DNA from: Geothrix sp.
Lineage (GTDB): Bacteria > Acidobacteriota > Holophagae > Holophagales > Holophagaceae
Direction: 5' to 3'
Length of the DNA: 64,000 nt
Assembly: GCF_020622065.1 (NCBI RefSeq)
Contig: NZ_JAHRYQ010000001.1
Location: forward strand, 1,054,001-1,118,000
Positions 8,931 through 46,959 of the stretch are shown here, in pieces. The notes under the pieces were generated by a model. The model was given only the letters and a program-made list of their open reading frames with translations. It was not told the DNA's origin and made no database searches. The position numbers were made by a program, and so were the translations under genes. The stretch's first letter is position 1. Every line of letters starts with the position of its first letter.

Positions 8931-10655
8931 ATGAACCAGGACGGGACGCATACCGGGGCCCAGCTCATCTGGGAGAGCCTCCAGCGCGAAGGGGTGGACA
9001 CGGTCTTCGGCTATCCCGGCGGAGCCATCCTGCCGACCTACGACGCCATGGTGGGCTACCCGATCCGGCATGTGCTGGTGCGCCACGAGCAGAGCGCCGC
9101 GCACATGGCCGATGGCTATGCCCGGGCTTCGGGCCGCGTGGGGGTGGTGGTGGCCACCTCGGGCCCCGGAGCGACCAACCTCGTCACCGGGTTGGCCACG
9201 GCCATGCTCGACTCCACGCCGCTGGTGGCGATCACCGGGCAGGTGGGCTCGGCCCTGCTGGGCACGGACGCCTTCCAGGAAGTGGACATCACGGGCATCA
9301 CCATCCCCATCACCAAGCACAACTACCTGGTGACCCGGGCCGAAGAGATCGTCCCGGCCCTCCGCGAGGCCTTCGCGGTGGCCCGCAGCGGCCGCCCCGG
9401 CCCCGTGCTGGTGGACATCACCAAGGACGCGCAGCAGTCCCGGGCGACGCTGGACTGGGCGGCAGCTGCGCCCCAGCGCCACCGGCGCCACCTGCCGCCC
9501 CCGCCGGATCCGGCCGAGTTGGCGCGCGCGCTGGAGTTGATCCGCCACGCCAAGCGGCCCGTCATCCTCGCCGGCCACGGCATCCAACTGGCCGGGGCCC
9601 GGGCCGAAGTGCTGGCGCTGGCCGAGCGCGCCGACATCCCCTTCGCCCTGACGCTGCTCGGCCTGGGCGCCGTGCCCGCCACGCATCCCCTCAGTCTCGG
9701 GATGATGGGCATGCACGGTGAATCCTGGGTGAACCGCGCCATCCAGGAGGCGGATCTCCTGCTGGCCCTGGGCATGCGCTTCGATGACCGCGTGACCGGC
9801 AAGCTCAGGGAATACGCCCCGAACGCGCGGAAGGTCCACATCGACATCGACGCCAGCGAGCTGAACAAGAATGTGCCGGTGGAGGTGGCCATCGCGGGGG
9901 ACCTGCTGGAGGTGCTCAGGGCGCTGCTGCCCGGGGTGCCGGTGGCGGACCGCTCGAGCTGGCTGGGCACCATCCGGGAGTGGCGGGGCGATTCCGCCGT
10001 GCGCGACATCCAGAACCTGCCGGACGACGGGCACCTCTATGCGGCCCATGTCATGCACGACCTCTGGCGCCTCACGAAGGGTGAGGCGGTGGTGGTCACC
10101 GATGTGGGCCAGCACCAGATGTGGGAGGCCCAGTATTACAAGCACGACGGTGAACGGAGCCTCATCACCAGCGGGGGCGCGGGCACCATGGGTTTCGCGC
10201 TGCCCGCGGCCATCGGCGCCAAGCTGGCGCGGCCCGAGGCCGAAGTCTGGGTGGTGGCGGGCGACGGCGGCTTCCAGATGACCTTCGCTGAGCTCATGAC
10301 GGCCGTGCAGGAGGGCGTGAAGGTCCACATCGCCATCATCAACAACGGGTACCTGGGCATGGTCCGCCAGTGGCAGGCCATGTTCTACGAGGGCCGCTAC
10401 GCCGCCACGCCCATCCGTTCACCGGACTTCGTGAAGCTGGCGGAGGCCTTCGGCATCCCTGGGCAGCGGGTGGAGGCCCGGGGCGACCTGGCCGCCGCCG
10501 TGGCCCGGGCCCGGGCGGTTGAAGGTCCGGCGCTCATCGAGTTCAAGGTCGAGCAGGAGGACAGCGTCTACCCCATGGTGCCGGCGGGCGCGGCGCTGCA
10601 CGACATGATCCGCCGCCCCAGCGCCCTCGCCGAAACCGGTTCGGATCCCGCATGA
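8931..10655 (+). CDS. ilvB: Acetolactate synthase, catalytic subunit
   Basis: Thiamine-diphosphate enzyme that makes acetolactate or acetohydroxybutyrate; partner of IlvN. 574 residues. The N-terminal pyrimidine-binding domain has GYPGGAILP and the catalytic glutamate in RHEQSAAHMADGYARASG. The C-terminal pyrophosphate-binding domain has GDGGFQMTFAELMT and the metal-binding NNGYLGMVRQWQ. The reading frame is open further upstream, but the ATG at 8931 with GGGGGTGG before it gives the family's N-terminus. Eleven bases separate it from ilvD. Its stop overlaps the start region of ilvN. Confidence 0.97.
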   Translation: MNQDGTHTGAQLIWESLQREGVDTVFGYPGGAILPTYDAMVGYPIRHVLVRHEQSAAHMADGYARASGRVGVVVATSGPGATNLVTGLATAMLDSTPLVAITGQVGSALLGTDAFQEVDITGITIPITKHNYLVTRAEEIVPALREAFAVARSGRPGPVLVDITKDAQQSRATLDWAAAAPQRHRRHLPPPPDPAELARALELIRHAKRPVILAGHGIQLAGARAEVLALAERADIPFALTLLGLGAVPATHPLSLGMMGMHGESWVNRAIQEADLLLALGMRFDDRVTGKLREYAPNARKVHIDIDASELNKNVPVEVAIAGDLLEVLRALLPGVPVADRSSWLGTIREWRGDSAVRDIQNLPDDGHLYAAHVMHDLWRLTKGEAVVVTDVGQHQMWEAQYYKHDGERSLITSGGAGTMGFALPAAIGAKLARPEAEVWVVAGDGGFQMTFAELMTAVQEGVKVHIAIINNGYLGMVRQWQAMFYEGRYAATPIRSPDFVKLAEAFGIPGQRVEARGDLAAAVARARAVEGPALIEFKVEQEDSVYPMVPAGAALHDMIRRPSALAETGSDPA

Positions 10656-10662
10656 AAGGAGG
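10655..10662 (+). promoter_or_regulatory. ilvN: Strong Shine-Dalgarno that decides the ilvN start
   Basis: AAAGGAGG overlaps the ilvB stop codon and ends four bases before an in-frame GTG at 10667. An ATG at 10652, overlapping the ilvB TGA, is also in frame but has no Shine-Dalgarno of its own. The GTG is therefore the better-supported start, though coupled initiation at the ATG cannot be excluded. Confidence 0.6.
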
Positions 10663-10666
10663 CTCT

Positions 10667-11227
10667 GTGCTCCAGGTTTCCAACTCTCAGGTCCTCGTGG
10701 TCTACACCGATGACGAACCCGGCGTCCTGACCCGCATCGCCTCCCTGATCCGGCGCCGCGGCTTCAACATCCACTCCCTGACTGTGGGTCCCACGGAGCG
10801 GGCCGGCCTGTCCCGCATGACCATCGTCGTGGATTCCGAGGCACCCATGGTGCGCCAGGCCGTGGAGCATCTCCGCAAGCTGGTGAATGTCCTGGAGGTC
10901 CAGCCGCTGGGGGAGCGGCCCAAAGTGGTGCGCGACCTGGTGCTGGTGCGGGTGGCGGCCGGGCCCGAGGTGCGTTCCGAAGTGCTCCAGCTGGCCCAGG
11001 TCTTCCGGGCCACGGTGGTGGACATCGCCGAAGACAGCCTCGTCATCGAATGCACCGGCAGCCTCGACAAGATCGATGCCCTGGTGGATGCCATGCGGCC
11101 CTTCGGCATCCTCGAGCTGGGCCGCACCGGCGCGGTGGCCATGGCCCGGGGCACGCGCACGCCCCCGCCGACCCGCGCCGCGATGCCGCTGCATACAGGC
11201 ACCGGCCCCGAAGCCATGTCCGTCTGA
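10667..11227 (+). CDS. ilvN: Acetolactate synthase, regulatory subunit
   Basis: Small subunit that confers valine feedback control on IlvB. From the GTG at 10667 it is 186 residues (191 from the ATG at 10652). The N-terminal ACT domain contains DEPGVLTRIASLIRRRGFNI, with the usual dimer-interface sequence. The second domain (about residues 85-160) contains LVLVRVAAGPEVRSEVLQL and FGILELGRTGAVAMARG, as in the IlvN/IlvH C-terminal domain. Long-form (IlvH-like) rather than the short enteric IlvN. The tail after MARGTRTP is proline-rich and unconserved. Confidence 0.94.
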   Translation: MLQVSNSQVLVVYTDDEPGVLTRIASLIRRRGFNIHSLTVGPTERAGLSRMTIVVDSEAPMVRQAVEHLRKLVNVLEVQPLGERPKVVRDLVLVRVAAGPEVRSEVLQLAQVFRATVVDIAEDSLVIECTGSLDKIDALVDAMRPFGILELGRTGAVAMARGTRTPPPTRAAMPLHTGTGPEAMSV

Positions 11228-11275
11228 TTGCCCCACGCCCACGCGCTCATTCCCCCTCACCCAAGGAGCCCCCCC

Positions 11276-12292
11276 ATGGCCAAGATCCACTACGACGCCG
11301 ACCTCGGCCTCATCCGCGCCCGCAAGGTCGCCATCCTGGGCTTCGGTTCCCAGGGCCACGCCCATGCCCTCAACCTCAAGGACAGCGGCGTCCATGTCCG
11401 CGTCGGGCTTCCGGCCGCCTCCGCCTCGCGGGCCAAGGCCGAAGCCCAGGGCCTCACCGTCACCACGCCCGCCGAAGCCGCGGCCTGGGCGGATGTGATC
11501 ATGGTCCTCACCCCCGACACGGGGCAGGGCGCCCTCTACCAGGAATCCATCGCGCCCCACCTGACGCCGGGCAAGACGCTGATGTTCGCTCACGGCTTCA
11601 ACATCCGCTACGGCTGCATCCAGCCGCCCGCGGGGGTGGATGTCAGCCTGGTGGCCCCCAAGAGCCCCGGCCACCGGGTGCGCGAGGTCTTCGTGGAAGG
11701 CGGGGGCACGCCGGCCCTCGTGGCCGTCCACCAGGACGCCAGCGGGCAGGCCCTGGCCCTGGCGCTGTCCTACGCAGCGGCCCTTGGCCTGACTCGGGCA
11801 GGCGTCCTGGAGACAACCTTTGCGGAAGAAACTGAAACGGATCTCTTCGGCGAGAAGGCGGTGCTCTGCGGGGGGGCGAGCGCCCTCGTAAAGGCGGGCT
11901 TCGAGACCCTGGTGGAAGCCGGCTATCAGCCCGAGATTGCCTATTTCGAGTGTCTGCATGAATTGAAGCTCATCGTGGACCTGATGTACCGGGGCGGCCT
12001 CAGCTTCATGCGCTACAGCATCAGCGACACGGCGGAATACGGCGACTACAGCGGAGGGCCCCGGTTGGTGACCGAGCAGACCAAGGCCGAGATGAAGGAG
12101 ATCCTGAAGGAGATCCAGGACGGCCGCTACGCCGCGGCGTGGATCGAGGAGAACCGCACGGGGCGCCGGTGGTTCGAGGCGCAGCGGGCCGCAGATCACG
12201 ACCATCCCATCGAACAGGTGGGCCGGAACCTGCGCCGCATGATGCCCTTCCTGGATCCCGTGGAGACGCCCGCGCCGGTGGCCCGGCCGTAG
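11276..12292 (+). CDS. ilvC: Ketol-acid reductoisomerase (class I)
   Basis: Isomerises and reduces acetolactate to dihydroxyisovalerate. 338 residues, the short class I form. The frame is open upstream, but the ATG at 11276 follows AAGGAG by seven bases and gives the standard N-terminus. The Rossmann fold has [17 protein letters not shown]. The knotted C-terminal domain has [16 protein letters not shown] and [19 protein letters not shown], with metal-binding acidic residues. The short loop after the second strand ([12 protein letters not shown]) contains serines, which usually indicates NADPH preference. Last gene of the ilv group. Confidence 0.97.
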
Positions 12293-12404
12293 CGTTTCGC
12301 CGCATCGCGGAGGATCCGCCAGAGGTTATTTTTGGCCACTGTTTTTTACCTTCATGACCAGCGGCTTGCCTGGCTTCAGGAGGTCTGGCCCGGGATGGCC
12401 TGAC

Positions 12405-12448
12405 CTGGGGTCAAAACCTTGAACGCCGTCACAGGGTTTTGGCCCCAG
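12405..12448. repeat. Long inverted repeat between ilvC and the next gene
   Basis: CTGGGGTCAAAACC (12405-12418) and GGTTTTGGCCCCAG (12435-12448) form a 14-bp stem that is perfect but for one G-T pair, around a 16-base loop. It lies about 45 bases before the ATG of the flavin oxidoreductase. No T-run follows, so it is more likely an operator or a leader structure than a terminator. Short T-runs at about 12329-12347, just after ilvC, have no clear stem. Confidence 0.6.
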
Positions 12449-12493
12449 AATGCTTGTTGCGGTAAGACATTTCCCGCGATCCCGGAGCCCGCA

Positions 12494-14221
12494 ATGGCTG
12501 AGTCCTTCTTCAACACCTCGACGCTGCCCACCCTCCAGGGTTGGCAGGCGCCGGGTTCCCTCGACTTCCAGGCCGCCTTCCTGCGGGCCGGAGGCTGGGC
12601 GCTGCCCCGCACCGAGGCCTTCCCCGACGCGGCCAAGCTCCGGGAGCGGCTGCACGAACTCAAGGCCTCCATGCGCGAGGGCGCCAAGATCGGTCTGGAC
12701 CTCCGGGGCCTGCGGGACAGCGCCGATAGCGTGATGGCCGCCGCCCGCGAGGCCGGCGTGGCCTTCCTGCTGCACACGGCGGAGCTGCCGCCCTCGCTGG
12801 CTATGCTGAAGCACGCGAACATGCCCCGCCTTGTGGCCGTGCAGAGCCCCGAGGAAGGAGCCCAGGCCAAGGCCGGCGGCGCTTCCGCCCTGCTGGCCCG
12901 GGCCTGCGATGTGGCAGCCCTGCGCTTCCTGGGACTTCCCGTGATGGCAGTGGCCGATACGGAAGCCGAGGCCAAGCAGGCCATGGCCGATGGGGCCATC
13001 GGCCTCCAGCCGCGCACGCCTTCGCTGCTGGACGCTTCGCCCCTGGCCGCCTTCCGCACCCGGCTCATGGCCGGCCTGGATTCCATGGCCCAGGCGCTCG
13101 TCCGCAAGGGTGCCTGCACCCTGCCGCGCCTGCGCATCCGCAACCTCGACCTGGCCTATCCCATCCAGCAAGGCGGCATGGGTGTGGGCATCTCCTGGGA
13201 AGGCCTGGCGGGCGCCGTGGCCCGTGAGGGCTGCGTGGGCCTGGTCTCGGCCATCGGCACGGGCTACCACGGCTCAGCCAACCCCACCATGCGCCTGGGC
13301 CGCCCCGATGGCTCCGATTCGCTGAACCCGCCCAAGGCGCTGGAATGGATCATCCGCGCCGCCCGGGAGCGCTCCGAAGGCCGGGGCGCCGTGGGCGTGA
13401 ACATCCTCTGCGCCATCGAAGGGTACGAGTCCGCCGTGCGGGCTTCCATCGCCGGTGGCGCCCAGATGATCGTGTCCGGCGCAGGCCTGCCCCTGGCCCT
13501 GCCGGGTTATGTGGGCGACGCGGATGTGGCCCTGGTGCCCATCGTGTCCTCGGGCCGGGCGCTCCAGGTGATCTGCAAGCAGTGGCAGCGGAAGTACAAC
13601 CGCCTGCCGGATGCCGTGGTGCTGGAAGGCCCCGAAAGCGGCGGTCACCAGGGTTTCAGCCACGACGGCTGTCTGGATCCGGCCCACACCCTGGAGAACA
13701 TCCTGCCCGAGGTCATCGAGGAGCGGGACAAGTGGGGCGACTTCCCCATCCTGGTGGCGGGCGGTGTGTGGGATCACGCCGACATCCAACGCTTCCTGGC
13801 CCTGGGCGCCTCCGGCGTGCAGATGGGCACCCGCTTCATCGGCACCTTCGAGTGCGACGCCTCGCCCATCTTCAAGGAGGTCATCCTCCGGGCCAAGGCC
13901 GAGGACATCGGCCTCATGAAGTCCCCGGTGGGCCTGCCCGCCCGGGGCGTGCGGACCTCCCTGCAGCGGCGCATCGAGGCCGGCACCGCGCCCCAGATCC
14001 GCTGCGTGAGCAACTGCCTGTCGCCCTGCGGCCACGGCAAGGGGGCCGCCGCCGTGGGCTACTGCATCGCGGACCGTCTGGCCGACGCCATGCGCGGCGA
14101 CGAGGAGAGTGGCCTCTTCTTCACCGGCAGCAACGGCGCCAAGCTCCGCGACCTGGTCAGCGTCCGCGACCTCATCGAGGAACTGACGCAGGATCCAGGC
14201 CTGCAGCGGGTCTACGCCTAA
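12494..14221 (+). CDS. Nitronate monooxygenase-like flavoprotein with N-terminal extension
   Basis: A 575-residue protein. From about residue 215 it is a full NMO/2-nitropropane-dioxygenase TIM barrel: PIQQGGMGVGISWEGLAGAVA, the flavin-binding VVLEGPESGGHQGF with the catalytic-type histidine, ILVAGGVWDHADI and GASGVQMGTRF. A cysteine-rich tail (CVSNCLSPCGHGKGA) follows. Residues 1-210 have alternating hydrophobic strands and helices that look like a decayed barrel half. Typical NMOs are about 320-360 residues, so this is a long form, like proteins related to PfaD or enoyl reductase. The substrate is unknown. Confidence 0.8.
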   Translation: MAESFFNTSTLPTLQGWQAPGSLDFQAAFLRAGGWALPRTEAFPDAAKLRERLHELKASMREGAKIGLDLRGLRDSADSVMAAAREAGVAFLLHTAELPPSLAMLKHANMPRLVAVQSPEEGAQAKAGGASALLARACDVAALRFLGLPVMAVADTEAEAKQAMADGAIGLQPRTPSLLDASPLAAFRTRLMAGLDSMAQALVRKGACTLPRLRIRNLDLAYPIQQGGMGVGISWEGLAGAVAREGCVGLVSAIGTGYHGSANPTMRLGRPDGSDSLNPPKALEWIIRAARERSEGRGAVGVNILCAIEGYESAVRASIAGGAQMIVSGAGLPLALPGYVGDADVALVPIVSSGRALQVICKQWQRKYNRLPDAVVLEGPESGGHQGFSHDGCLDPAHTLENILPEVIEERDKWGDFPILVAGGVWDHADIQRFLALGASGVQMGTRFIGTFECDASPIFKEVILRAKAEDIGLMKSPVGLPARGVRTSLQRRIEAGTAPQIRCVSNCLSPCGHGKGAAAVGYCIADRLADAMRGDEESGLFFTGSNGAKLRDLVSVRDLIEELTQDPGLQRVYA

Positions 14222-39660: not shown

Positions 39661-40470
39661 ATGCCGGCCTTCGACCCCTGGGACCCCTACCGCGACCTGC
39701 GTTTCGCCGGCACGCGGGAGCACCCGGATTACGGGACCTGCTTCATCGCGGAGGGCCGGATCCTGGTGGAGGACCTGCTGGAGGCGGGCCGCGCCGGGCG
39801 CCTGAAGGTCATCTCCGTGGCCGCCACCACCTCGGCAGCGGCAGAGCTTCGCGACCGCCTTCCGGCCGGCACGGACCTGCTGACGATGGAACCCGCGGCC
39901 CTGTCGGAGCTGGCGGGCTTTCCCTTCCACCGCGGCCTCATGGCCTGCGCCCAGGTGCCCGCACCGCCGCCGGCCCCGGCCCTGCGCGCCGCCCGCCGCC
40001 TGCTGGTGCTGCCCCGCCTCTATGACAGCGAGAACCTGGGGCTGCTGCTGCGTAGCGCCGCGGCCCTGGGCCTGGATGGCGTGCTGGCGGGGCCGGGGCC
40101 GGGCCAGTGGACCCGGCGCACCGTGCGCGTCTCCATGGGCGCCGTGTGGCGCATCCCCGTGTGGCGGGCAGAGGATCCCTGGGCGCTCCTGGCGGATTGG
40201 AAGGCGGCGGAACCCGGCTCGGAAGCCGTGGCCGCCGCGCTCACGCCGGGGGCGGAGGAGGCGCATGCCTGGCGGCCGGCCCCCCGCTGTGCCCTGGTGA
40301 TGGGTCCGGAGGACACGGGCCTGGATGCCCGCCAGCTGGCCTGCTGCGACCGTGCGGTGGCCATCCCCATGGCGTCGGGCATGGACAGCCTCAATGTCGC
40401 CGCCGCCGGCGCGATCCTGATGTTCCAGATGGCGGGATCCGGCTTCACTGGTAGCAGACGGACACCTTGA
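39661..40470 (+). CDS. SpoU/TrmH-family RNA methyltransferase
   Basis: A 269-residue SPOUT 2'-O-ribose methyltransferase. An N-terminal substrate-binding domain (1-100, with CFIAEGRILVEDLLEAG) is followed by the catalytic domain. That domain has the three family motifs: DSENLGLLLRSAAALG, LVMGPEDTGLD and IPMASGMDSLNVAAAGAI. Of the RlmB/TsnR type; the target nucleotide cannot be told. The last 26 bases overlap the end of the convergent pilus tip gene. Confidence 0.9.
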   Translation: MPAFDPWDPYRDLRFAGTREHPDYGTCFIAEGRILVEDLLEAGRAGRLKVISVAATTSAAAELRDRLPAGTDLLTMEPAALSELAGFPFHRGLMACAQVPAPPPAPALRAARRLLVLPRLYDSENLGLLLRSAAALGLDGVLAGPGPGQWTRRTVRVSMGAVWRIPVWRAEDPWALLADWKAAEPGSEAVAAALTPGAEEAHAWRPAPRCALVMGPEDTGLDARQLACCDRAVAIPMASGMDSLNVAAAGAILMFQMAGSGFTGSRRTP

Positions 40471-41356
40471 ACAGCCCGCGGTAGAGCCCGCTCGCCTGTC
40501 CGGGCGGCACCACCAGGCTGGCACCCACCCGGAAGGGCACCGTGCCCGTCGGAAGGGCGCCCTGGACCGGCAGGTCGCAGACGAATTCACGGACTTCCAG
40601 AGGTGCGCCGGGCCCCGTCAGCAACATCCGGGTGGGCAGCTGCAGGTTGTAGCCCGAGCCTGGAGGGCCCGACAGGAGGAAGGCCGCGGGCCGGGGATTG
40701 CCGCGGACCAGACGCGGTCCCCCAGCGGGGGTGCTCCGGTGTGAGCCATCCGGGGCGATGCTGAAGGTGCCCTCGGTGGAGCCTGGCAGCAGGCTCCCGA
40801 AGTCCAGGGGGCTCCCGTTGCTCAGCTTGAGGACAGGGCGCAGGTAGGCACGAATGCCGAAGGCTTGCCGCGCCACCCGGGGTTCCGGGCTCCCCTGCAC
40901 CCGCATCTCCAGAATCACCTGCTCGAGGGCGTAGGGGCCTTCGGGCGTGCCGGCCTGGATGTCGAGTTTGGCGCCGAGCCGTAGTTCCGCCTGACCCTGG
41001 GCATCGAAGGTTCCCTCCAGGCTGGGGAAGGACGGGAAGAACGACTCCACATGGATCTGCCCGCCCCGCGGTCCAGCGAGCAGCGGTTTCGGCGGATCCA
41101 GCCGCAGGAAGAACCGGGCCCGGGGTGGACCTGACAGCTGGAACCGGGCCTCCTGGCTGGTCGGCCGGAGGATGGGGCTGAGGCCGGGGCTCAAGGCGAT
41201 CCGCACCCCTTCGTGGGTGAGGGTGATCATGCCGCCCCGGTCCGCCACCTGGAGGCCGCCGAAGTGCATGTCCTGCACCAGCCGGATGGCCGGATCCTGG
41301 GCCTGGGCCAGCACCGAGGACAGGGCGAGGGTGAGCAGGATGGGCCGGGTGAACAT
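40445..41356 (-). CDS. Two-domain DUF4402 protein, likely pilus tip subunit
   Basis: A 303-residue secreted protein with a signal peptide (RPILLTLALSSVLAQA). It holds two copies of a DUF4402-like pilin fold, about residues 24-155 and 175-303. The second copy is clear: LDFGSLLPGSTEG, a FLLSGPPGSGYNL strand pair, FRVGASLVVPPGQASG and the closing YRGLFKVSVCYQ. The first copy is more diverged (HFGGLQVADRGG, RFQLSGPP, RLGAKLDIQAGTPEG). A two-domain subunit encoded last after usher and chaperone recalls the tip adhesin CsuE of archaic chaperone-usher pili. AAAGGAG lies six bases before the ATG. Confidence 0.75.
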   Translation of the reverse strand: MFTRPILLTLALSSVLAQAQDPAIRLVQDMHFGGLQVADRGGMITLTHEGVRIALSPGLSPILRPTSQEARFQLSGPPRARFFLRLDPPKPLLAGPRGGQIHVESFFPSFPSLEGTFDAQGQAELRLGAKLDIQAGTPEGPYALEQVILEMRVQGSPEPRVARQAFGIRAYLRPVLKLSNGSPLDFGSLLPGSTEGTFSIAPDGSHRSTPAGGPRLVRGNPRPAAFLLSGPPGSGYNLQLPTRMLLTGPGAPLEVREFVCDLPVQGALPTGTVPFRVGASLVVPPGQASGLYRGLFKVSVCYQ

Positions 41357-41392
41357 GGCAGCTCCTTTCCAGGTGGGTCGGGGTCGAACGGA

Positions 41393-44161
41393 TCAGGGCT
41401 TTCGGGGAGGAGGGTCCTCCCGGGCGGGCGGGACGGGCAGTGCTTCGGCGGGCCCTTCTTCCACCACCAGGTCGAGGCCTTCGAGGAAGCTCTTCTTCGC
41501 ATCGATGTGGATGGGGCGCGAAGGTGCGTGCGTCAAGCCCAGGCGGCGGACCTCCTCGGGCGTGATGCGAAGCACATAGTCACCGGGCGGGAGGTCACGG
41601 AACTCGAAGAAGCCGTCGTAGGCGCTCCGCTTCGTCTTGAGGGAGGTGCCGGCGGGCGTGATGATCTCCAGTTCGAGCCCCGGCAGCTCCTCGGTCTTGC
41701 CGGCCTTGCGGAGCCGGGTGGTGCCGCTCACCTCGCCCATGATGGTGATGGGGTAGTCCACGGTCATGACCTTGCCGGGCCTGGGGAGAATCCGATAGGA
41801 AGCGAGGGTCGGCCGCATGGAGGCATCCTCCAGGGTGCCTTCGTCCACCTGGAAGGCCAGATCCTGGCTCCTGCCCACATGGGAGTACAACGCGACCTTG
41901 GGATCGGGCCGCCGTTCCGGCAGTTCGCTCCCACCCACCTTGAACCGGACATCCTCGAGGGTGCGTTCGCCGGGATCTCGCCGCCCATTCAAGTTCTCGT
42001 CCATGAAGGCGGAGGCCGAGACGGCTCCCATGGACGACATGGCGCGGGCATCCATGAAGCCTTTGCCCGTCCGTGGTTCGCGTCCGAAGGAGGCCGACAG
42101 GCGCAGGCCGGCGGTATAGCCCGTGGCCCGGGCGTAGCTGGCATCGACCCCGTAGGCGATGCGCCCCGTCATTTTGGTGACGCTGGCGTTGATCGCCGTG
42201 TCGCGCAGGGATCCGTTGCTCCCCTGCAGGGTCACCCGGTAGAGCATCCCTTCTCCGTGGCGGTAGTCCGCGCCCAGGCCCCAGCTCTGGAACCGCGTCC
42301 GGTTCTGCTCCCGGGCGAAGGTCACCGAACCCAGAAGGTTGAGGTTCTCGCCGAAGGAGGAGACGAAGACGCTCCCCTCGGTCCGGACGGACTCCTGGCC
42401 GGCGCGCAGGGAGCGGATGCGCGTGAGGATGGGCGAGATGCTGAGCCGGGAGAGGCTGGCCGTGACCTGGGCGCGATCGCTCTGGAAGGCGCTGTCGAGA
42501 AAGACCTGGCGCTGGTGCTGGAGGTAGAGGTTCAGCGGGAAGCTCTTGAGGGGAAGAGGCGCCGAGAAGTCCGCGAAGTCCTCGGTGCGGATCACTTCGC
42601 CGCGCTCCGAGATGCCGAGTTTGTAGAAGCCCCGACGGTACTCCGACCGCCTCAGGGTCATGGTGGAGTAGCCGATGCCGGTCATCAGGATGCCCTCGGC
42701 GGCCAGTCCCTTGGACTCGGTTCCATCCGTCTTCTCAGCCTGGTCCTGGGCTCCGTTCAGCTGCAGGGACAGGAAGGGCAGGATCGCCCGGAGTCCCAGC
42801 ACGCTGTAGTCGTGCGTGCCGGTGGAGACGGCCATGCGGCTGAAGCCCGATTTCACGGAGAACATGGTGGACAGTCCATATTCGGCCTCGGCCAGCAGGG
42901 CCGTCCGGTGGGTCGGATCCAGCAGGATGGGCTGGGCACTCGGGTCGAGGCTCACCAGGGGGTAGGTGAGGTACGACGCTCGCGGCCGCCAACCCGCCGC
43001 GCGGTAGTAGAAGGTCCCCGGAGGCGGTTGCTCCTGCGCGATGTCCAGGCGGTAGTTCCGTTCCGTGCGCTGGCCGAGCGGGCCATGGAAGACCAGCCGG
43101 AATTGGTTCAGCCCGAACCGCATCGGCACATCCATGAATTCGTACTGGCCATCGGCCCGGGACCGCTGGAACGATACCAGGCTGCCGTTCTGGTACAACT
43201 CCACCGTCCAGCCCTCCGGCAGGGGCCCCCGGAAGGTCCGGGCGGCGAAGGTGGCGCGGTACGAGGTGGGGTAGTTGTCCACGAGCACCCCGCGTCCGGA
43301 GGGCAGGGAGCCGGCCAGTTCCAGCGAGGGGGTGGGGATGTCCACCAGGGCGACATGCCTGGCGTGGAGGGGCCCCAGCAGGCCGCCCGAGGGGTCGTCC
43401 CGGGACAGCGTCCCGCGGCTCGAATTGAAGGAGCCGTTCGCGTCCCGGGTGAGGTAGATTTCGGAGCTCATCCAGAGCAGGTCGCCGCCGGTCATGACGG
43501 CGCCCTGGACCGGGGCGCCGGCCCCCCGCTGGGCTGTCCGCCAGGAGGCGCTGAGATCCACCATGGGGACATCGATGAAGGCATAGGGCGATGGATAGCG
43601 CGGCGCCTGGTTCGCCGGGTCAGTATCCGGCGCGAAGCCGAGCTTGCCGCCGTATCGCTTGTCGCGGTCCCAGGCGGCCTGGATCGGCAGGCGCTCCTTG
43701 GCCTTGATCTGGATGGCGGAGGCCCGCAGGTCGATCTCAAGTTCCAGGGGGAACCATGTCTGGAAGAGGCGGGCGTCCACATAGAGGTCGGACTTGAAGG
43801 CGCGCACCTGCGCAGCCTCGAAGGTCATGCGGCGACCCTCCACCTCCACCGTCCGGCCCGCGAGGTCCAGCGCAAAGCGCCGCCTGGGCGAGATGAAGAA
43901 GCCTGAGGCCTGCCCTTTCGCGCCCTGCACGGTGATGCCGAGGGACAGCAGCCGCGACAGTTCCCCCAGGGGGACGAGGGGGGCCGGCCGGGCCGGAAAG
44001 GCCAGGAGGCCGTCACCCAAGGGGGTCCGGTCGAGGTAGGGCTGCAGGATCATGGCGTCGGCCTCGTCCAGGGGGCCGTCTTTCCGTTCTTGCGCATCCA
44101 CCAGGGCGGCCGCGAGGAACACCGCCGCGGCCGCCCGGAGGAAACACCGATCTGGAGGCAT
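41393..44161 (-). CDS. Usher-like outer membrane protein
   Basis: A 922-residue protein with a signal peptide (cleavage near residue 24). An N-terminal beta domain (about 30-155) is followed by a long central region of amphipathic strands (about 195-760) as in an outer membrane barrel, with usher-like passages such as VDNYPTSYRATFAARTFRG and MRFGLNQFRLVFHG. A CarboxypepD_reg/SpaA-like domain (about 825-895, with AYDGFFEFRDLPPGDYVLRI) ends it. Probably exports and assembles the DUF4402 subunits. Sequence is far from FimD; the call leans on size, topology and context. ATG two bases after the chaperone stop. Confidence 0.75.
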   Translation of the reverse strand: MPPDRCFLRAAAAVFLAAALVDAQERKDGPLDEADAMILQPYLDRTPLGDGLLAFPARPAPLVPLGELSRLLSLGITVQGAKGQASGFFISPRRRFALDLAGRTVEVEGRRMTFEAAQVRAFKSDLYVDARLFQTWFPLELEIDLRASAIQIKAKERLPIQAAWDRDKRYGGKLGFAPDTDPANQAPRYPSPYAFIDVPMVDLSASWRTAQRGAGAPVQGAVMTGGDLLWMSSEIYLTRDANGSFNSSRGTLSRDDPSGGLLGPLHARHVALVDIPTPSLELAGSLPSGRGVLVDNYPTSYRATFAARTFRGPLPEGWTVELYQNGSLVSFQRSRADGQYEFMDVPMRFGLNQFRLVFHGPLGQRTERNYRLDIAQEQPPPGTFYYRAAGWRPRASYLTYPLVSLDPSAQPILLDPTHRTALLAEAEYGLSTMFSVKSGFSRMAVSTGTHDYSVLGLRAILPFLSLQLNGAQDQAEKTDGTESKGLAAEGILMTGIGYSTMTLRRSEYRRGFYKLGISERGEVIRTEDFADFSAPLPLKSFPLNLYLQHQRQVFLDSAFQSDRAQVTASLSRLSISPILTRIRSLRAGQESVRTEGSVFVSSFGENLNLLGSVTFAREQNRTRFQSWGLGADYRHGEGMLYRVTLQGSNGSLRDTAINASVTKMTGRIAYGVDASYARATGYTAGLRLSASFGREPRTGKGFMDARAMSSMGAVSASAFMDENLNGRRDPGERTLEDVRFKVGGSELPERRPDPKVALYSHVGRSQDLAFQVDEGTLEDASMRPTLASYRILPRPGKVMTVDYPITIMGEVSGTTRLRKAGKTEELPGLELEIITPAGTSLKTKRSAYDGFFEFRDLPPGDYVLRITPEEVRRLGLTHAPSRPIHIDAKKSFLEGLDLVVEEGPAEALPVPPAREDPPPRKP

Positions 44162-44163
44162 GT

Positions 44164-45123
44164 TCAGTGGTCGATGTCGAAGGAGGCCGAGACCGGGGGG
44201 AGCTTCATGTCGGTGGCGGTGAAGGTGACCTTGACCCGGGTCCCCTTGAGCCCGCCGTTCTGCCCAAGCTGCATGGGCAGGTGGACTTCCCGTCTGGCGA
44301 GGTTCGCGTAGATGGCGATCGCCTTCAGCTCGCTGATGCGGGCGCCTTTCTTGAACTTGCCGCCGGATTCCACGGTGACGGCAAACTCGCCGATGACGCT
44401 GCGATTCCCGGTGCGCTCCATGGTGAGGCTCAGGACCGGGAGCGCCTCGGGTACATCCGGCTGCCAGAAACGGAACCCGGTGAGCGTGATGTTCGCCGTG
44501 GTCGGTCCATGCCGGACGATGATCGGTATGGAGATGCCCACCAGCTGCGTGATGTTGAAGCTCAGCTTCTGCTCGGGGTCCTCGCCGGAGGGCTTGGGGG
44601 GCTCGGCGGTGGGGATGGCCTGGAGCAGCAGGTGGGATCGGTATTCGCCGTCGGGGAGCCCTTCCGGTTTGCGCACCTGGACTCGGACCGTCTGGGACTC
44701 GCCGGGGGCGAGATCCACCTGGCGGGGGGAGAAGCGGACCAGATCCGCAGCGGTGATCTCACCGGGCCTCCGCTCCCGCTCCTGGATCCTTCCGCCGGGC
44801 AGCATGTCCATTTCCTTGAAGCTCACCCGGTACGAGGCGGCCGTGACCCCGCAGTTCTGCAGCATGATCTCGGCGGAGCGCTCGCGTCCCTCGAGCACCA
44901 CGCGGGTGGGGAAGATGGCGAGATCTCCGGTTCCTCCGGGCCGGGGGGCCGGCATCCCTGAAGGGGGCTTGATCGGCTGGCCGGCAGGAGGTGACGCCGG
45001 TTGCGCGGTGGGCGGAGACGGCGCGGGCGTCTGGGGGACGGCTGATGGGCCGCCGCCGGCGTCTCGGGAGATCGCCAGCAGGCAGCCAAGAAGGATGGAT
45101 AGGGCAGATCGGCTCGGCATCAT
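44164..45123 (-). CDS. PapD-like periplasmic pilus chaperone
   Basis: A 319-residue secreted protein. A signal peptide and a 40-residue proline-rich segment precede an Ig-like chaperone domain starting near residue 65 (LAIFPTRVVLEGRERSAEIML). It continues with VRFSPRQVDLAPGESQTVRVQV and GEYRSHLLLQAIP, equivalents of the F1-G1 region and the conserved Arg/Lys that anchors subunit C-termini. A second domain follows to residue 319. The proline-rich insert is unusual for PapD chaperones. First of two consecutive ATGs chosen; the Shine-Dalgarno is weak. Located between pilin and usher genes. Confidence 0.83.
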   Translation of the reverse strand: MMPSRSALSILLGCLLAISRDAGGGPSAVPQTPAPSPPTAQPASPPAGQPIKPPSGMPAPRPGGTGDLAIFPTRVVLEGRERSAEIMLQNCGVTAASYRVSFKEMDMLPGGRIQERERRPGEITAADLVRFSPRQVDLAPGESQTVRVQVRKPEGLPDGEYRSHLLLQAIPTAEPPKPSGEDPEQKLSFNITQLVGISIPIIVRHGPTTANITLTGFRFWQPDVPEALPVLSLTMERTGNRSVIGEFAVTVESGGKFKKGARISELKAIAIYANLARREVHLPMQLGQNGGLKGTRVKVTFTATDMKLPPVSASFDIDH

Positions 45124-45210
45124 GGCGGTGGGTGTTGGGCCTTCGGCGCCGACCCGGGGGCCGCGAGGTCAGACCTCGCGGCCCCCGGGGATTCCTGACG
45201 CCGCAGAGGC

Positions 45211-45804
45211 TCAGTTGTAGGTGACCTTTACCGTGATGGTCCCGGCGTAGTTGCCGGGGATGGCATCCGAGGGGATGTCCAGCTTGCCGAACACTGAGAA
45301 GTGCTTGGCCGCGGTGCCTTCCTTGGGCGGGAAGTAGAGGCAGGAGTCCACGGGCAGGTCGTTCTTCGGGGTGAAGTGGCAGGCCTTCCCATGGGGGCCG
45401 ATCAGATCGGTGGCGGTGATGTCGATGCTCACATTGGGATCGCCATCAGGGACGGGCATGAGGCTCGGGCCGCCGCCGCCGAAGTTGTTGTCCCGCTGAT
45501 AGTGGAAGAAGGCCGCGGTCGGCATTGCGGTCTTGTTGTAGAAGCCGCAGTTCACGAGCTTCTTGTCGGTGAGGGACGGGTTGCCGTTGGGCGGCGTGTT
45601 GAAGGTCAGCTCCACACTGGCGGCCTTTCCGAGCTCATCCAGCACGATGGATCCGAAGTTCAGGTCCTGGGTGGACACGACCTTGACGGGCGCCATGATC
45701 TTGGCGAAGGAGTGGGCGGTGGCGGTGTCGCTGTTGCCGATGCCGACCGGATCGAGGGCCAGCAATGGGGATGCGACGAGCGCGAAGGCGATGAACTTGC
45801 GCAT
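45211..45804 (-). CDS. DUF4402 pilin-like major subunit
   Basis: A 197-residue secreted protein, signal peptide MRKFIAFALVASPLLA. The DUF4402 domain begins VSTQDLNFGSIVLD and ends GNYAGTITVKVTYN, an alternating last strand that a chaperone or neighbouring subunit could cap by donor-strand exchange. Three cysteines (in NCGFYN, ACHFTP and SCLYFP) may form one disulfide. GGAG lies five bases before the ATG. It is the first gene of the four-gene operon and so likely the most abundant subunit. SCPU-type spore coat proteins have a similar fold. Confidence 0.78.
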   Translation of the reverse strand: MRKFIAFALVASPLLALDPVGIGNSDTATAHSFAKIMAPVKVVSTQDLNFGSIVLDELGKAASVELTFNTPPNGNPSLTDKKLVNCGFYNKTAMPTAAFFHYQRDNNFGGGGPSLMPVPDGDPNVSIDITATDLIGPHGKACHFTPKNDLPVDSCLYFPPKEGTAAKHFSVFGKLDIPSDAIPGNYAGTITVKVTYN

Positions 45805-46176
45805 GAATTCTCCATATGGGGCTAGCGTCCGGTGGGCGATGGATTCAACCCTGGCCGGACAATGTTTGGGGAACCCGGATTCCCCCGAGCGGGGGTTTCC
45901 GGGGTGAGACAGGCCACTGGCGGGCGCAGTCCCGGGTTCATGCGGGCGCAGCGGCCTTGGGGCGTTGCATTGAGGGTTCCTGACCGGACCGATGCAGGTG
46001 ACTGGAACAGGTCTAAGGTGATGCCGTGGAAGAAAGCGAGCAAGGGCGAAAATGGTTAAGATTTGTTAAAAAATCGATGAAAAACCACAATATAAATCAT
46101 TTTATTTCTTTGTTTGAATCTTCATTGCCCAGTGCCTGCCGGCTGGGGTTCCCCGGTTTGGGCAGGGGGCTTCCTG
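45805..46176 (-). promoter_or_regulatory. Long leader and promoter region of the pilus operon
   Basis: 372 bases without a convincing gene. Next to the pilin gene the DNA is GC-rich and holds the dyad described at 45874-45903. An AT-rich block at about 46049-46128 is the probable promoter: on the minus strand TTCAAA (plus 46113-46118), an 18-base spacer and TATATT (plus 46089-46094) make a fair sigma-70-type match. A transcript from there would carry a leader of about 280 bases. Confidence 0.5.
45874..45903. repeat. Dyad in the pilus operon leader
   Basis: CCCGGA-TT-CCCCC (45874-45886) and GGGGG-TT-TCCGGG (45891-45903) pair over 11 bp, interrupted by a symmetric TT/TT internal loop, with a 4-base GAGC loop. 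It lies about 70 bases upstream of the pilin ATG. No T-run follows on the minus strand, so it is more likely an operator or RNA structure than a terminator. Confidence 0.6.
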
Positions 46177-46959
46177 CTAGCAGCAGACGAAACCCACGCC
46201 CCACTCCGTCTTGAAATGCTGCGGGTGGGCGGGGTCGTCCTCGAGCTTTTCGCGCAGTTTGCACACGAAGACATCCAGGGCCTTCGCGCTGCCGAAGTGG
46301 TGCTCGCCCCAGACCTCTTCGCGGAGCTGCTCCCGCGTGAGCACCTCGCCCGGGTGCCGGAGGAACACGGCCAGCAAGGCGAATTCCCGGGGCGTGAGAT
46401 CCACTTCGCGGCCGCCCTTGAAGACCTTCATCGTCAGGCATTCCAGGCGCAGGTCGCCGAGGGACAGGGTGTTCGAGATCTGGGACTGGTGCGCGTACCG
46501 CCGCAGCACGGCCCGGATCCGTGCCACGAGCACATCCGGACCGAAGGGCTTCACCAGGTAGTCATCCGCGCCCAGATCGAGGCCCGACACTTTGTCGGAG
46601 TCGTCGCCCCGTCCCGTGAGGATGAGGATGGCCAGCGCTTCGCTCTGCTGCCTCAGCTTCTGGCACAGCTCGAATCCATCCATGCCCGGCAGGCCGATGT
46701 CCAGGAGGGCCACCTGCGTTGGATGGCGGTTGAAGAGGTCGAGAGCCTCCTCGCCGCTGCCCGTCTCGTGGACCTTGAAGCCCGCCTTCTGAAGCGTGAT
46801 CCGGATGAACTTCCGGGCGACGGGATCATCCTCCACCAGCAGGACCGGACAGGTGGGTCCCAGGATTCCGATCCAGCTCGGGCCATGCGAATTCCGGGAC
46901 GCACCAAGGGGAACCTCCGTGGAGGTCGGCTGGAAGGTGCAGGGTGTCCGCTGGTTCAT
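46177..46959 (-). CDS. OmpR-family response regulator, orphan
   Basis: A 260-residue two-component response regulator. Receiver domain about residues 38-155 with acidic pair Asp44-Asp45, phospho-acceptor Asp87 (LLDIGLPGMDG), Thr115 and Lys137 (VKPFG). The OmpR-type winged helix (about 165-260) has LTPREFALLAVFLRHPGEVLTREQL and ends GVGFVCC. The frame is open to 47043, but the ATG at 46959 is the more likely start; even so, 35 residues precede the receiver. No histidine kinase is encoded beside it. Encoded directly upstream of the pilus operon on the same strand, so it may control it. Confidence 0.88.
   Translation of the reverse strand: MNQRTPCTFQPTSTEVPLGASRNSHGPSWIGILGPTCPVLLVEDDPVARKFIRITLQKAGFKVHETGSGEEALDLFNRHPTQVALLDIGLPGMDGFELCQKLRQQSEALAILILTGRGDDSDKVSGLDLGADDYLVKPFGPDVLVARIRAVLRRYAHQSQISNTLSLGDLRLECLTMKVFKGGREVDLTPREFALLAVFLRHPGEVLTREQLREEVWGEHHFGSAKALDVFVCKLREKLEDDPAHPQHFKTEWGVGFVCC

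Follow-up and report, generated by a model that had tools for sequence, protein, structure and literature searches.

Does a cluster of secreted DUF4402 proteins in Geothrix, encoded beside a PapD-like chaperone and a large outer-membrane protein, form a pilus? The cluster lies in a stretch of 64,000 nucleotides, hereafter the window (RefSeq assembly GCF_020622065.1, contig NZ_JAHRYQ010000001.1, positions 1,054,001 to 1,118,000), which is part of the complete 3.35-Mb genome of Geothrix sp. Four genes are read leftward between 40445 and 45804, in the order pilin, chaperone, usher, and two-domain DUF4402 protein. The gene for an OmpR-type response regulator lies upstream of the pilin gene on the same strand. 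An original prediction from the sequence alone had named these five genes, all of which were found where it placed them, and had proposed a chaperone-usher system that is divergent and uses DUF4402 proteins as its subunits. This central proposal is strongly supported by the usher fold, the subunit signatures, and the co-occurrence of both families. We estimate a probability of about 0.93 that the operon encodes a chaperone-usher pilus assembled by donor-strand exchange from DUF4402 subunits.

Structure of the predicted usher

The AlphaFold2 model of the 922-residue protein, based on an 18-sequence alignment, had a mean predicted local distance difference test score (pLDDT) of 77.9 and a predicted template modeling score (pTM) of 0.61. 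It starts with an N-terminal domain at about residues 37 to 154. According to DSSP, barrel strands 1 to 6 (residues 196 to 295) are followed by an immunoglobulin (Ig)-like plug (307 to 373) and by strands 7 to 24 (384 to 694), and two C-terminal domains lie after the barrel (about 712 to 902). The large barrel by which the usher assignment could be judged is therefore found in the model, and a 24-strand barrel with a plug between strands 6 and 7 is the plan of FimD and PapC. In a Foldseek search of the PDB, ranks 1 to 18 were all FimD or PapC, with E values from 1.5e-28 to 2.8e-12. VIA gave Z scores of 17 to 19.6 for FimD/PapC and of 15 or less for other barrels, aligning model residues 188 to 900 with residues 131 to 833 of FimD. 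A FimD-like sequence segment was also detected in the first C-terminal domain (hhalign, P = 0.015). Judged by its predicted structure, the 922-residue protein is an outer-membrane usher.

At the sequence level, none of 18 Holophagaceae members exceeded the curated cut-off of the Pfam family Usher (PF00577). Searches of the PDB with phmmer and with profiles returned only Ig-like relatives of the C-terminal domains (SdrD and others) and no usher, so the protein is too divergent for an usher to be detected by sequence.

An outer-membrane barrel of another kind, such as a TonB-dependent-type transporter with a CarboxypepD_reg domain, would mean that the DUF4402 proteins are secreted without forming a fibre. 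RefSeq names the plasmid-borne relatives described below "carboxypeptidase-like regulatory domain-containing protein" and does not recognize them as ushers, and siderophore receptors appear lower in the fold list of the model. However, ushers outranked all other barrels (E values of 2.8e-12 or less versus 1.8e-6; Z of at least 17 versus 15). The position of the plug, the two domains after the barrel, the PapD-like chaperone encoded next door, and the chaperone-usher signatures of the DUF4402 subunits likewise argue against a transporter, which we consider highly improbable. The CarboxypepD_reg domain that had been assigned to the C terminus of the window protein scored 21.4 against a curated cut-off of 32.3; the region is the ordinary second C-terminal domain of the usher and not an added module.

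In some ushers the C terminus continues into a long extension (loci L035:8835-11942 and L036:339-3533). A match to SPOR, a peptidoglycan-binding domain, was present in 3 of 25 diverse ushers, and in Pseudoalteromonas separate SPOR proteins flank the operon on both sides (L201:7712-8350).

DUF4402 proteins as probable pilus subunits

Two DUF4402 matches were obtained for the two-domain protein (Pfam, E = 3.4e-35). The match of the window pilin was limited to its last 32 residues, covering the last strands (29.6 bits; cut-off, 25.2). DUF4402 was matched by 20 of 21 pilins, with no match to any other Pfam pilin family; they did not qualify as SCPU proteins, in line with the prediction that DUF4402 takes the place of SCPU here. 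The pilin ends with GNYAGTITVKVTYN. In the alignments, a Gly at position -14 and a Tyr at position -2 from the C terminus were invariant (21/21 pilins and 13/13 two-domain tips), and both were present in 110 of the 141 open reading frames of a wider subunit set. Such a C-terminal Gly/Tyr motif is a classical hallmark of chaperone-usher subunits; a literature search by wording for the motif found no paper.

When a profile of the two-domain protein was compared with 177,635 PDB sequences, the CFA/I and CS1 subunits CfaB, CfaE, and CooA ranked first. The matched segment of CfaB consists of the end of one subunit and the donor strand of the next. An hhalign comparison of the subunit with K-12 EcpA, as a single sequence, was not significant.

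In the model of the two-domain protein (pLDDT 90), the linker (residues 160 to 174) forms a long strand beside domain 1, whereas domain 2 ends in a strand that is mostly without a partner. Domain 1 is therefore complete in cis, and domain 2 awaits a strand. The in-cis linker provides the complementing strand expected of a chaperone-usher subunit. Residues 18 to 174 aligned with donor-strand-complemented CfaE (Z 10.0), EcpA (Z 8.8), and FimA (Z 8.2); the value for archaic CsuE was 9.2.

The two subunits also differ at their N termini. The pilin has an extension, the donor strand, ahead of its first domain strand (LNFG), and the two-domain protein of the window lacks an N-terminal donor strand. 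A comparable asymmetry was seen in loci with two one-domain subunits, which are mostly proteobacterial. Here, the extension had a median length of 30.5 residues in subunit 1 and 15 in subunit 2 (Mann-Whitney p = 6e-9), counted from the cleavage site predicted by a simple in-house rule to the first domain strand. A subunit with no N-terminal strand to donate can sit at the tip only.

Additional proteins accompany the subunits in some loci. In Roseateles, Pelomonas, and Polaromonas, a small third protein is encoded between the two DUF4402 subunits (L127:6269-6583, L136:6056-6451, and L200:2907-3314). In the first two loci it has a donor-strand-like N terminus and ends with a hydrophobic residue followed by Asn. 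From these sequence features, it may be an unrecognized further subunit. Locus L050 contains four DUF4402 pilin paralogues in tandem upstream of a single chaperone-usher pair (10244-13165), and no two-domain tip gene was called beside its usher; pilin variation is a possible role of these paralogues. In loci of the G. fermentans type, a gene convergent to the tip gene (L041:5555-5974, L042:9879-10298, and L044:5456-5875) encodes a conserved secreted protein about 139 amino acids long, which is absent from the window.

Chaperone

The window chaperone scored just at the PapD_N cut-off (23.1 versus 23.0), and PapD_N was present in 15/15 chaperones of the family. Alignment with K-12 EcpB by hhalign placed P133 on Pro60 and R162 on Arg89, which is Arg89 in CsuC as well (P = 0.035; P = 0.003 for a broader alignment); assuming a 20-residue signal peptide, these are EcpB precursor positions 80 and 109. 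Both residues were invariant across 26 chaperone relatives. The G1 strand of the window chaperone would be GISIPIIV. The Pro is invariant through the whole chaperone-usher superfamily, and the Arg is characteristic of archaic and alternative chaperones; Tyr196/Arg174 of CsuC represents a second-domain pair in non-classical chaperones (PMC4654587). R237 and Y272, at least 90% conserved in the relatives, may be the candidate second-domain Arg/Tyr pair, to go by their conservation; the hhalign match to EcpB stops short of this domain. The only chaperone retrieved in a PDB sequence search was CfaA, with a weak match (E = 1.2). The proline-rich stretch, earlier described as an insert, is no insert in the chaperone fold because it sits between the signal peptide and the first domain and is absent from most relatives.

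Co-occurrence and distribution

The distribution of the two families was determined in 396 Acidobacteriota genomes using presence thresholds of E ≤1e-5 for DUF4402 and E ≤1e-30 for the usher. The same 22 genomes contained both, and the remaining 374 had neither. The chance of such co-occurrence would be 10^-35.8 for independent genomes, a figure that is inflated by relatedness. Inside the family (20/39 genomes) and the genus (15/26 genomes), the match between DUF4402 and usher also held without exception. Pfam-type ushers were present in 10 other Acidobacteriota genomes and in none of the 22 with this usher. Elsewhere in the Acidobacteriota, weaker matches to the usher profile (E values of 1e-12 to 1e-5) covered C-terminal Ig-like parts only and were not counted.

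A separate scan of named genomes yielded 80 loci. Their hosts include Geothrix, other Holophagaceae, Massilia, Telluria, Polaromonas, Pelomonas, Roseateles, Kiloniella, and Porphyrobacter, as well as Desulfuromonadaceae and Zixiibacteriota metagenome-assembled genomes and others; related operons are found in Beta-, Alpha-, and Gammaproteobacteria, and also in other phyla. DUF4402 pilins and a chaperone adjoin the usher in nearly all loci with sufficient flanking sequence, and because the order pilin-chaperone-usher recurs in them, the arrangement is not due to chance. Taken with the signatures above, these data strongly support DUF4402 proteins as the subunits of this usher family.

Polaromonas plasmid pE5SP1 (L200) carries a complete DUF4402-chaperone-usher operon beside transposase genes, and the usher is present on a second Polaromonas plasmid, NC_007950.1. 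The system is probably horizontally mobile. A literature search found no mention of DUF4402, subscription papers being outside its reach, and a search for Geothrix and pili returned no title or abstract on a DUF4402 pilus system.

Operon layout and proposed assembly

The features of the locus are compiled in Table 1. The chaperone and usher genes are separated by 2 nt, the usher and tip genes by 36 nt, and the pilin and chaperone genes by 87 nt. The last gap contains an inverted repeat with a fold z score of -6.1. A strong hairpin was present between the pilin and chaperone genes in 14 of 15 loci, with differing sequences, and was followed by a U-run in several of them. An Rfam search of the operon region gave no match. 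The hairpin is likely a partial terminator or RNA stabilizer, favoring pilin over usher.

Table 1. Coordinates of the operon and adjacent elements in the window
Feature	Position	Strand	Remarks
Putative tip subunit, two DUF4402 domains	40445..41356	-	303 aa; Pfam and model
Predicted outer-membrane usher	41393..44161	-	922 aa; AlphaFold2 model and fold matches
PapD-like periplasmic chaperone	44164..45123	-	319 aa; PapD_N
Perfect inverted repeat in pilin/chaperone gap	45153..45189	-	18 bp, 1-nt spacer; hairpin in relatives
Predicted DUF4402 rod subunit (major pilin)	45211..45804	-	197 aa; signal peptide
Direct repeat TTAAC-N5-TTAAC	46055..46069	-	10-bp period; conserved in six operon-bearing genomes
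Orphan OmpR/PhoB-type response regulator	46177..46959	-	260 aa; Response_reg and Trans_reg_C (Pfam)

We propose that DUF4402 subunits reach the periplasm as incomplete Ig-like folds, where the PapD-like chaperone would cap them and hand them to the 24-strand usher pore. Because it has no N-terminal donor strand, the two-domain protein would have to be secreted before the others, which places it at the tip. Domain 1 would already be complete through the linker strand, and the first pilin would insert its N-terminal strand into domain 2. Further pilins would then polymerize by donor-strand exchange, with the hairpin 3' of the pilin gene probably ensuring that pilin outnumbers usher. The usher fold, the subunit fold with its in-cis donor strand, the signatures, and the co-occurrence were computed; assembly order, a surface fibre, and adhesion are what we infer.

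Several points weigh against a pilus. The best match to Pfam Usher among 25 diverse usher relatives had an E value of 0.27 and came from a single protein, the pTM of the usher model corresponds to medium confidence overall, and hhalign of the usher to K-12 EcpC, as a single sequence, gave no significant match. The CfaB match of the subunit profile (E = 1e-8) stems from three fused repeats, a single stretch having an i-Evalue of about 0.07. We know of no experimental evidence for pili of this system.

Adjacent regulator and upstream repeat

The original prediction also held that the adjacent regulator controls the operon. Its phospho-acceptor site is apparently intact (LLDIGLPGMDG, LTG, and LVKPF), and none of the roughly ten genes on each side of it encodes a histidine kinase. 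A direct repeat, TTAAC-N5-TTAAC, lies about 250 to 265 nt upstream of the pilin start. In a comparison of four genomes, it was the best-conserved block of the fast-changing intergenic region, and it recurs in two further genomes, one of which has the operon in inverted orientation with respect to the regulator. Allowing up to 2 mismatches, it is the sole such site in the genome, with 0.03 expected in the window. The repeat is of the OmpR type, and a regulator of the OmpR family may bind to it.

Activation of the operon by the regulator through this repeat would be compatible with a pilus. The conservation of the repeat in six operon-bearing genomes and its uniqueness in the genome favor this view, as does the arrangement in another genus (G342, L165), where a related regulator (48%) and the pilin are divergently encoded. 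However, regulator homologues (50 to 59%) occupy the same locus in 7 genomes without the operon (L173 to L179), G020 has its operon elsewhere (L180), operons of the G. fermentans type have neither regulator nor repeat, and G063, in which no close copy of the regulator was found, has similar repeats ahead of an unrelated gene. The conserved repeats upstream of the pilin gene thus speak for the claimed control, and regulators without operon, operons without regulator, and the G063 repeats speak against it; on balance, activation falls somewhat short of an even chance. As an operon-specific gene, the regulator is upheld only in part, by synteny, and the case for a repeat used by this regulator alone is weakened by the similar sites in G063.

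Where members of the genus lack the pilus operon, a homologue of the regulator still occupies the locus (L173 to L176), and in L173 and L174 it lies just downstream of likely surface-polysaccharide genes (sugar epimerase and sugar transferase). The regulator may govern surface structures more widely. In three Geothrix-type genomes, a TTAACAATTCTTAAC element was found about 70 to 85 nt upstream of a conserved gene whose protein has about 930 to 950 amino acids (L195:4529, L196:4133, and L198:4488). In L195 and L198, CTTG comes after the element, with nearly the spacing seen at the pilin promoter. These elements suggest a wider OmpR-type promoter class.

Relation to known chaperone-usher systems

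The machine itself is already known; new here are an unrecognized usher family and the attribution of its subunits to DUF4402. DUF4402, a Pfam domain of unknown function, gains a probable function as a fibre building block, and many outer-membrane proteins labeled by a minor domain gain a probable usher function. Chaperone-usher pili, well studied in pathogens, are extended to Geothrix and further bacteria of soil and water, so that the class and origin of these systems can be tested in harmless organisms. Since Geothrix is a metal-reducing genus, an unrecognized surface fibre bears on the attachment of its cells to minerals and electrodes.

By architecture, the system is in the chaperone-usher superfamily, without a Pfam Usher member. 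It could belong strictly to the archaic (Csu-like) or the alternative (CFA/I- or ECP-like) pathway and form no class of its own. The chaperone Pro/Arg pair is common to both classes (PMC4654587), and the subunit structure matches CfaE, CfaB, EcpA, and CsuE. Against this, Pfam scans gave no Usher match and no known pilin family, the PDB matches of the chaperone are confined to the weak one with CfaA, and among alternative-class usher and subunit families there was neither a Pfam match nor a significant hhalign alignment (EcpC and EcpA). We regard membership in either pathway as less likely than not. A kinship to archaic Csu pili is not established, as the Pro/Arg pair is also alternative and the fold fits CfaE, CfaB, and EcpA at least as well as CsuE. 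We give slightly less than even odds to a further class beside the classical, alternative, and archaic ones, whose usher family would escape current models and serve DUF4402 subunits exclusively. It would range from Acidobacteriota to Proteobacteria and onto plasmids. Its tip would be tandem and self-complemented in Holophagaceae, and in Proteobacteria it would have a single domain and no donor strand.

The alternative systems (CFA/I, CfaA-CfaB-CfaC-CfaE; ECP, EcpA-E) share with the DUF4402 system a two-domain tip, a polymerizing pilin, donor-strand-complemented Ig folds, and the chaperone Pro/Arg pair. They also supply the best structural matches of the DUF4402 subunit (CfaE, Z 10.0; EcpA, Z 8.8), but have no detectable sequence similarity to its usher. 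Whereas their tip combines an adhesin with a pilin, both tip domains are DUF4402 here, which gives the tip the look of two naturally fused pilins. Archaic systems (Csu and CupE) are alike in the non-classical chaperone residues, the two-domain tip of comparable fold (CsuE, Z 9.2), and the wide spread across phyla, but use several subunits, whereas DUF4402 systems often have one pilin and a tip. With the classical type 1 and P pili, the system shares the usher plan of FimD and PapC (N-terminal domain, plugged 24-strand barrel, and two C-terminal domains) and the subunit Gly/Tyr motif, although usher identity is only 10 to 15% and the window chaperone has the non-classical Arg. A parallel in gene set and order is offered, for example, by plasmid pE5SP1 of Polaromonas; its annotation recognizes neither usher nor pilus, but it, too, encodes a DUF4402 protein, a second DUF4402 protein, a molecular chaperone, and the usher, in this order.

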